Part shown: positions 32,769-33,015 of the stretch, piece by piece | How positions within the stretch are numbered: the first letter of the stretch is position 1 | How the letters are laid out: the number at the start of each line of letters is the position of its first letter | Source of the DNA: Actinomyces naeslundii | Lineage (GTDB): Bacteria; Actinomycetota; Actinomycetes; Actinomycetales; Actinomycetaceae | Assembly: GCF_001956585.1 (NCBI RefSeq) | Contig: NZ_MSRR01000019.1 | Coordinates: 62,001-126,000 of the forward strand | DNA length: 64,000 bases | Reading direction: 5' to 3' | Made by a program: the position numbers and the translations under genes | The notes under the pieces: generated by a model | What the model saw: only the letters and a program-made list of their open reading frames with translations | Told to the model about the DNA's origin: nothing | The model's database searches: none

Positions 32769-32795
32769 ACAGCTCGGGGCTGCGGCACCTGGGAT

Positions 32796-33015
32796 ACTCT
32801 AGAGACGGCGCGCTCGCGCCACACCCGGTAGCACGAACTGCACGGTCCGGAGGAAGTCCGGATGACGCCGTCGGGCCACAGGCCCTGCATCCGCCCCGAA
32901 CTTGTCGTGGGCAAGCGACAACCAGGCGTTCGTCACCTCGGGGATGCCGTTCATCGGACGTCACGGGGACTCCTGCTGCGCCGGGTGCGATCACTCGCAC
33001 CCGAAAAGGAGTCCC
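32796..33015 (+). ncRNA. Structured 5' leader of DUF2992 gene, candidate yjdF-class riboswitch
   Basis: About 210 nt following a possible -10 (TACTCT, 32796-32801). By eye it forms several nested stems. A closing stem GACGGCG (32805-32811) pairs with CGCCGTC (32867-32873). Inside it is TCCGGA-GGAAG-TCCGGA. Next come GGGCC-ACA-GGCCC, then CCCCGA...TCGGGG extended by GCAT...ATGC, enclosing TTGTCG...CGACAA. Last is GGGACTCCT (32966-32974) pairing with AGGAGTCCC (33007-33015) around GGGTGCGA/TCGCACCC. That last stem buries the Shine-Dalgarno AGGAG directly before ATG 33016. The yjdF RNA class precedes genes of this family in Firmicutes and binds azaaromatics; membership here is inference from gene context and structure. 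Confidence 0.65.

Follow-up and report, generated by a model that had tools for sequence, protein, structure and literature searches.

A probable remodelled relative of the yjdF riboswitches in the leader of an Actinomyces DUF2992 gene

Does the leader of a DUF2992 (YjdF) gene in Actinomyces naeslundii belong with the yjdF riboswitches and, if so, has it kept their ligand pocket and their means of control? The window analysed here is a stretch of 64,000 nucleotides (assembly GCF_001956585.1, contig NZ_MSRR01000019.1, positions 62,001 to 126,000), in which the gene lies between an S66 LD-carboxypeptidase gene upstream and ilvD downstream. Its identity, proposed in a first-pass annotation made from the letters alone, is borne out by a PF11208 match (E 3.1e-28), with no PDB sequence match to the protein at E ≤ 1 and no NCBIfam family. 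The 225-nt leader has a folding energy of -104.5 kcal/mol, a value that 198 of 200 dinucleotide shuffles fail to reach (z -2.63), and together with the comparative evidence below it is almost certainly a conserved structured RNA. Leaders of related genes were sorted into four types, canonical yjdF RNAs as type K and the others as types C, B and A, with the window in type A.

A covarying four-stem junction

The aptamer core spans positions 32824-32985 and is modelled as a four-stem junction, P1 to P4, whose stems covary among relatives (Table 1). The structure was drawn from five short type A leaders and turned into a covariance model, R1, from whose training the window was excluded; 31 leaders were then aligned to R1, giving 30 distinct rows, of which two belong to type B. 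Within these rows 17 of 25 pairs are altered on both sides and 94.4% of 727 cells are paired, with a covariation score of 0.455, and none of 500 shuffles reaches as high in pairing, two-sided changes or score, in an alignment that was itself fitted to the structure we drew and is biased towards it. Sliding the pairing partners as a control leaves 28-49% of cells paired and scores of at most 0.123. Three rows with misplaced 3' ends (L009, L015 and L017) were kept in the 30-row count and dropped from a cleaner 20-row set, which agrees (17 of 25 pairs two-sided, 94.7% paired). Covariation is present in all four helices of these model-fitted alignments; P2 is paired in every cell, and the inner part of P1 is the weakest, a single pair there being disrupted in 13 of 30 rows. 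Around the stems, type A leaders share the core (Y)GC(A/G)C - P2 - N(1-3)GGAAG(U/C) - P2' - P3 - CGUC(A/G) - P4 - ANUCC - P1'. Comparison of the leaders shows a P1-P4 four-way junction with a T-loop-like L2 and a conserved UCC in J4/1 complementary to GGA in L2. The long insert in P3 (32870-32924 in the window, also present in L002-L010) varies in both length and sequence, and no agreed fold was found for it; a spacer role or that of a second element is conceivable.

The first-pass annotation had also folded the leader by eye into at least five stems. Homologous leaders do covary, in the P1-P4 core, and two of the stems listed at that time did not survive the comparison. Among the 10 closest leaders, the window included, 6 have breaks in the composite CCCCGA/TCGGGG stem. 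The long-range closing stem GACGGCG/CGCCGTC can form unbroken in 8 of those 10, yet was rejected since its 3' arm overlaps the covarying P3; moreover, 19 of the other 24 type A leaders have a -10-like box no more than 26-34 nt ahead of the J1/2 core, a distance that we judge too short to accommodate the 5' arm of this stem.

That box bears on where the transcript begins. A TANNNT box stands just upstream of the first stem in all 34 type A leaders, many of them close relatives, against 34 of 591 control windows, and its distance to the J1/2 core is 26-51 nt in 34 of 34 type A and 4 of 4 type B leaders; among type C, 11 of 18 leaders have one inside the searched range. A start downstream of 32970, which would leave only the final hairpin in the transcript, is on this evidence unlikely.

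Table 1. Features of the leader and gene, in window positions
Feature	Positions	Strand	Basis
-10-like box TACTCT; predicted start at about 32806-32808	32795..32800	+	TANNNT in matching place in 34/34 type A
5' hairpin GGCGC-GCUC-GCGCC, upstream of the aptamer, in nearest relatives	32807..32820	+	stem invariant in 10/10 closest leaders, hence without covariation evidence
P1 outer, 5' strand, pairs with 32981-32985	32824..32828	+	R1/R2 alignments, helix 1 covariation
P1 inner, 5' strand, pairs with 32974-32977	32830..32833	+	weaker (one pair often broken, see text)
J1/2, conserved GCAC ahead of P2 (canonical yjdF: AACAC)	32834..32844	+	alignments, pocket table
P2 hairpin, T-loop-like L2 AGGAAGU (canonical UNGGUAGU)	32845..32863	+	P2 100% paired; loop comparison
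P3 (32864-32869 with 32925-32930) plus long variable insert	32864..32930	+	helix 3 covariation
J3/4 CGUCA (canonical yjdF: CAGUAAC)	32931..32935	+	CGUC(A/G) in 34/34 type A by type-set pattern; model alignment
P4 (32936-32940 with 32964-32968), without canonical anti-SD motif	32936..32968	+	helix 4 covariation; anti-SD scan
J4/1 ACUCC: UCC complementary to L2 GGA in the aptamer, CUCC anti-SD in the OFF fold	32969..32973	+	folds, comparison
P1 outer, 3' strand; 32983-32985 also begin the platform hairpin	32981..32985	+	predicted folds
Predicted expression platform: hairpin 32983-32989/32996-33002 enclosed by the SD-burying stem 32966-32974/33007-33015	32966..33015	+	minimum-energy fold, relatives
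Ribosome-binding site AGGAG	33007..33011	+	sequence
DUF2992/YjdF gene, 170 aa	33016..33528	+	PF11208

A predicted expression platform at the ribosome-binding site

A last stem that buries the AGGAG ahead of the start codon, as the first-pass annotation had described it, is part of the minimum-energy fold: GGGACTCCT pairs with AGGAGTCCC, enclosing a GGGTGCG/CGCACCC hairpin. The CUCC/GGAG core of this stem does not vary in 14 leaders from the two nearest groups, the window among them. At the outer pair five of these leaders have G-C, four A-U and two G.U, and in three it is broken; an A.C mismatch sits inside the stem in 5 of the 14. A further 14 leaders carry another platform hairpin, in which 98.6% of cells pair and two-sided changes occur in 1 of 11 pairs, no better than in shuffles on that measure: pairing is kept and covariation is weak. 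The predicted fold and the relatives support the proposed translation-control platform with its lock on the ribosome-binding site.

Since the 3' strand of P1 shares positions 32983-32985 with the platform hairpin, the P1 fold and the platform exclude each other. When P1 is absent from the predicted fold of the window, J4/1 ACUCC and the 3' arm of P4 together act as anti-SD and pair with AGGAG, and the P1 3' strand is taken up in the hairpin between them. The arrangement differs from that of the yjdF class, for which an anti-SD in the P4 region has been described (PMC10987639, PMC4793209): the P4 anti-SD motif is found in 10 of 10 parsed canonical loci (2 of 12 unparsed) and in 0 of 56 leaders of types A, B and C, including 0 of 34 of type A, where the anti-SD lies in the region of J4/1 and the P1 3' strand instead. 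J4/1 and/or the P1 3' strand pair with the SD or beside it in the majority of the folds predicted for the 3' segment of these three types; in several leaders the SD itself is largely open in these folds.

In the window the SD-buried fold is favoured over a forced aptamer fold by 12-14 kcal/mol, and for 17 leaders the gap between unconstrained and forced aptamer folds is 4.2-16.3 kcal/mol, computed without ligand or tertiary contacts; only the size of this gap is informative, its sign being fixed by construction as an unconstrained fold cannot be worse, and the unconstrained fold itself was inspected in three of the 17 leaders and in the window. Such energies would fit a switch that is OFF by default. 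The modelled gap of the window is large for switching at equilibrium, and would call for folding during transcription or for a large energetic contribution from tertiary contacts and ligand.

Distribution and kinship to the yjdF class

The RNA follows its gene closely. Of 149 related genomes searched at the protein level 26 have DUF2992, and in the bacterial family of the window PF11208 occurs in 41 of 213 genomes. A second covariance model, R2, built from 20 leaders of types A and B with the window included, matches 41 of these 213 genomes at E ≤ 0.05, forty of which are DUF2992 genomes; 40 of the 41 DUF2992 genomes thus carry the RNA, four of them as remnants, with a weak match in 1 of the 172 others (G457, 25.5 bits, without DUF2992 over the cut-off). 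The DUF2992 genome that R2 did not match (G576, locus L107) holds a gene remnant only, without a leader. The four remnants, in G004, G016, G029 and G044, are truncated aptamers fused to a broken DUF2992 gene; in these loci (L026, L025, L070 and L011, respectively) the 5' part of the aptamer is kept and the middle has been lost repeatedly. Elsewhere, G027 has a DUF2992 fragment without RNA leader (L027, contig C9) besides an intact copy with its leader (L005), and in G566 two DUF2992 genes about 3.3 kb apart (L082 and L104, C2:1037111-1037649 and 1040451-1040989) each have a type A leader, switch and gene having been duplicated as a unit.

Under stricter many-genome filters R1 has matches in 25 of 249 relatives, and it finds the leader of the window at E 0.0047 genome-wide. 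Over 345 genomes of the class R2 gave five matches, namely the window, a strong one in another family ahead of DUF2992 (G797), and three weak ones (G617, G601 and G888, 27-29 bits) that were treated as chance, these genomes having no DUF2992 match. A PF11208 search of the order of G797 found 27 of 258 genomes, and 20 of those leaders were examined.

The first-pass annotation had placed the leader in the yjdF class, to be checked with the Rfam model RF01764. This model gives no match at E ≤ 10 to any of the 13 type A leaders searched (that of the window, 10 further loci, L054 and L055), its gathering score of 45 bits not being reached. It does match, as type K, all of 12 DUF2992 loci from other families of the phylum. 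In between, 9 of 12 type C loci are matched, 2 above and 7 below the gathering score, and 3 have no match, so RF01764 under-annotates these near-canonical leaders; for type B the scores are 25.0 bits for L060 (part of the model, E 0.84), 21.4 for L063 (E 7.4) and 24.5 for L119 (E 4.1), all below gathering with E-values computed over 4227 families, and L132 is unmatched. Because RF01764 itself is silent on type A, kinship has to be argued through intermediates: types B and C, the models R1 and R2, and the pair 17-58 of the ligand pocket.

Left to recover the window, R1 does so at 42.8 bits (E 3.7e-7). Trained on no yjdF RNA, it also matches 7 of the 12 canonical loci at 17.2-28.2 bits (E 0.00088 to 0.3) and misses the other 5, the best match outside an aptamer in the same 132 kb search reaching 16.8 bits, just under the weakest canonical match. 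R2 reaches E ≤ 0.0063 in 7 of the 12 K loci and 0.74 in one more; of the 18 type C leaders it matches 12 below E 0.005 and a thirteenth at 0.02, the remaining 5 being unconvincing. The canonical matches of both models rest mostly on J1/2-P2-L2; in the R1 alignments L041, L043, L044 and L045 agree through P1 and UCC, and L037 and L038 are out of register in the 3' half.

The types can be set side by side by their junctions and loop, with J3/4 and J4/1 sought by one pattern per type; as these patterns were set after reading the leaders, the counts state presence where the stems allow rather than unbiased discovery, with positions 17, 55 and 58 left free. In the order J1/2, L2, J3/4 and J4/1, K (10 of 12 loci, two not being parsable) reads AACAC, GGUAGU, CAGUAACC and UGUCC; C (18 leaders, L121-L131 and L133-L139, from other actinobacteria) reads AACGC, GGUAGC, (C/U)GUA(A/U)CC and UGUCC; B (L060, L063, L119 and L132) reads CUCAC, GGUAGU, CGU(U/A)G and AAACC; and A (34 leaders, window included, the four truncated ones and L055 excluded) reads (U/C)GC(A/G)C, GGAAG(U/C), CGUC(A/G) and ANUCC. 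Types B and C share gene, architecture and the absence of a P4 anti-SD motif with type A, and differ from it in retaining GGUAG in L2, with AAC-GC and UGUCC also retained in C, and CUCAC and AAACC in B. Joint alignments of several types by MAFFT were set aside, their 3' ends being out of register. One leader of the canonical group (L040, 1957-2060) has CCGUAGCC in J3/4 as in type B, yet retains GGUAGU and UGUCC, and junction variation thus exists within the known class.

On a tree of 55 DUF2992 proteins, K is split from A, B and C together (100/100), and the leader types require 4 changes where 3 is the minimum possible; long branches call for caution with this tree. Type A does not form one side of a branch in this tree, as L097 groups with B and C.

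Taken with the pocket comparison below, these data make type A leaders very probably homologous to yjdF RNAs. They share with RF01764 the downstream DUF2992 gene, the four-stem junction with its connecting segments (in model-fitted alignments), GG-AG(U/C) in L2, CC in J4/1, the pair 17-58 by compensation and a translational platform linked to the ribosome-binding site; all 34 type A leaders have complementary letters for the L2-J4/1 contact G53G54-C117C118. They differ from it in L2, where all 34 have GGAAG(U/C), with A for U55, in place of UNGGUAGU and the loop of the window is one base short, in NGCAC for AACAC and CGUC(R) for CAGUAAC, with the register of positions 14-15 uncertain, and in the long P3 and P4 inserts of the window's group. 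As the leader departs from RF01764 in model score, in L2 and junction consensus and in the P4 platform, we do not file it there and classify it as a variant type of the yjdF kind, outside RF01764 as defined. Of the earlier placement, kinship stands and strict membership does not.

Ligand pocket, mechanism and rival readings

In the crystal structure of the R. gauvreauii aptamer the ligand is sandwiched in L2 by U55 and A56. The pair U55-A14 forms the floor of the pocket and A56-U96 its roof, G53-C118 and G54-C117 lie beneath the ligand, and side contacts come from 17-58 and 18-57; stacking accounts for most of the binding, and selectivity is low (PMC10987639). We mapped the leaders onto this numbering ourselves, by loop register, base 116 being located with the per-type pattern. 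On this mapping the pair 17-58 is A-U in the 10 parsed K loci, the 4 B leaders and all but one of the 34 type A leaders, whereas all 18 C leaders have G-C there, as does L021; compensation of a putative tertiary pair in two lineages is the best single sign of a shared fold. A56, U96, G53-G54 and C117-C118 are apparently retained in type A, and its J3/4 is apparently one base short, with C in place of A97. K and C have U at both 55 and 116, all 4 B leaders have U-A and all 34 A leaders A-U, a lineage-level change rather than many events, and in A and B the L2-J4/1 contact can consist of three Watson-Crick pairs (GGU/ACC or GGA/UCC). We infer that in type A a 55-116 pair replaces U55-A14 as the floor of the pocket. 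A candidate covariation between 15 and 97 (G-C in A, U-A in L063, U.U in other B, A.A in canonical RNAs) was dropped, as extra bases before CAC in A and B make the register of 14-15 uncertain.

In our reading the leader is a cis-regulatory switch that descends from the yjdF (azaaromatic) riboswitches and has been remodelled, turning DUF2992 translation ON through a ligand; we regard this as probable, and a ligand-responsive translational ON switch as likely. A planar ligand would dock at L2 between positions 55 and 56, and so stabilise the L2-J4/1 contact and P1; the anti-SD would thereby be removed and DUF2992 translated. As the floor would be 55-116 instead of U55-A14, ligand preference may differ, a possibility that we put forward tentatively. 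With similar reserve, somewhat short of an even chance, we suggest that these RNAs form a distinct Actinomycete riboswitch class grown from yjdF, with a 55-116 floor, changed junction walls, an anti-SD moved from P4 to J4/1 and P1, and a different, perhaps more selective, ligand.

The leader could instead be an ordinary azaaromatic riboswitch of the same broad ligand range, its changed bases reflecting neutral drift that keeps a promiscuous stacking pocket. The retained positions around the ligand, the unchanged downstream gene and the low selectivity of stacking in yjdF (PMC10987639) agree with drift, whereas the changes hit conserved pocket positions and go together, 55 with 116 and likewise both junctions, and every one of the 34 type A leaders has them; we consider this account possible and rather doubtful. 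A ligand-free element, be it a tRNA-like translation enhancer, a temperature switch or an autoregulatory site bound by the DUF2992 protein, would accord with the near one-to-one association of the RNA with its own gene and with the stimulation of translation by tRNA-like leader folds, as reported by Trachman et al. (PMC9142559); it is unlikely, as conservation is strongest in the segments that make up the yjdF ligand pocket and intermediates link type A to a ligand-binding class. That the final SD hairpin alone functions, the upstream part being untranscribed or unstructured, draws on the place of SD stem and hairpin in the minimum-energy fold and is largely refuted, and very improbable, given the P1-P4 covariation, the conserved loop and junctions and the -10-like box ahead of the aptamer in 34 of 34 leaders.

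A remodelled switch of yjdF descent, our preferred reading, resembles the guanine, guanidine-IV and SAM-to-spermidine riboswitch variants, in which a few pocket bases are reported to be changed on a known scaffold (PMC9295807, PMC9788692, PMC10853860). The occurrence of yjdF RNAs in Actinobacteria, which the first-pass annotation took as an extension of the class, is not new in itself: it is reported by Li et al. 2016 (PMC4793209), who also give 1413 of 1826 YjdF coding regions as having a riboswitch, and canonical RNAs stand at 12 of our 12 loci from other families. What looks new is the remodelled type, a literature search, largely of open-access papers, having shown no Actinomyces or DUF2992 variant among the matches listed. 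The canonical, C, B and A leaders form a series before the same gene in which pocket bases change in a few defined steps, with an expression platform that has moved between stems on a conserved aptamer and an Rfam model blind to every type A leader tested; compounds still bound by all types would be candidates for the natural yjdF ligand.
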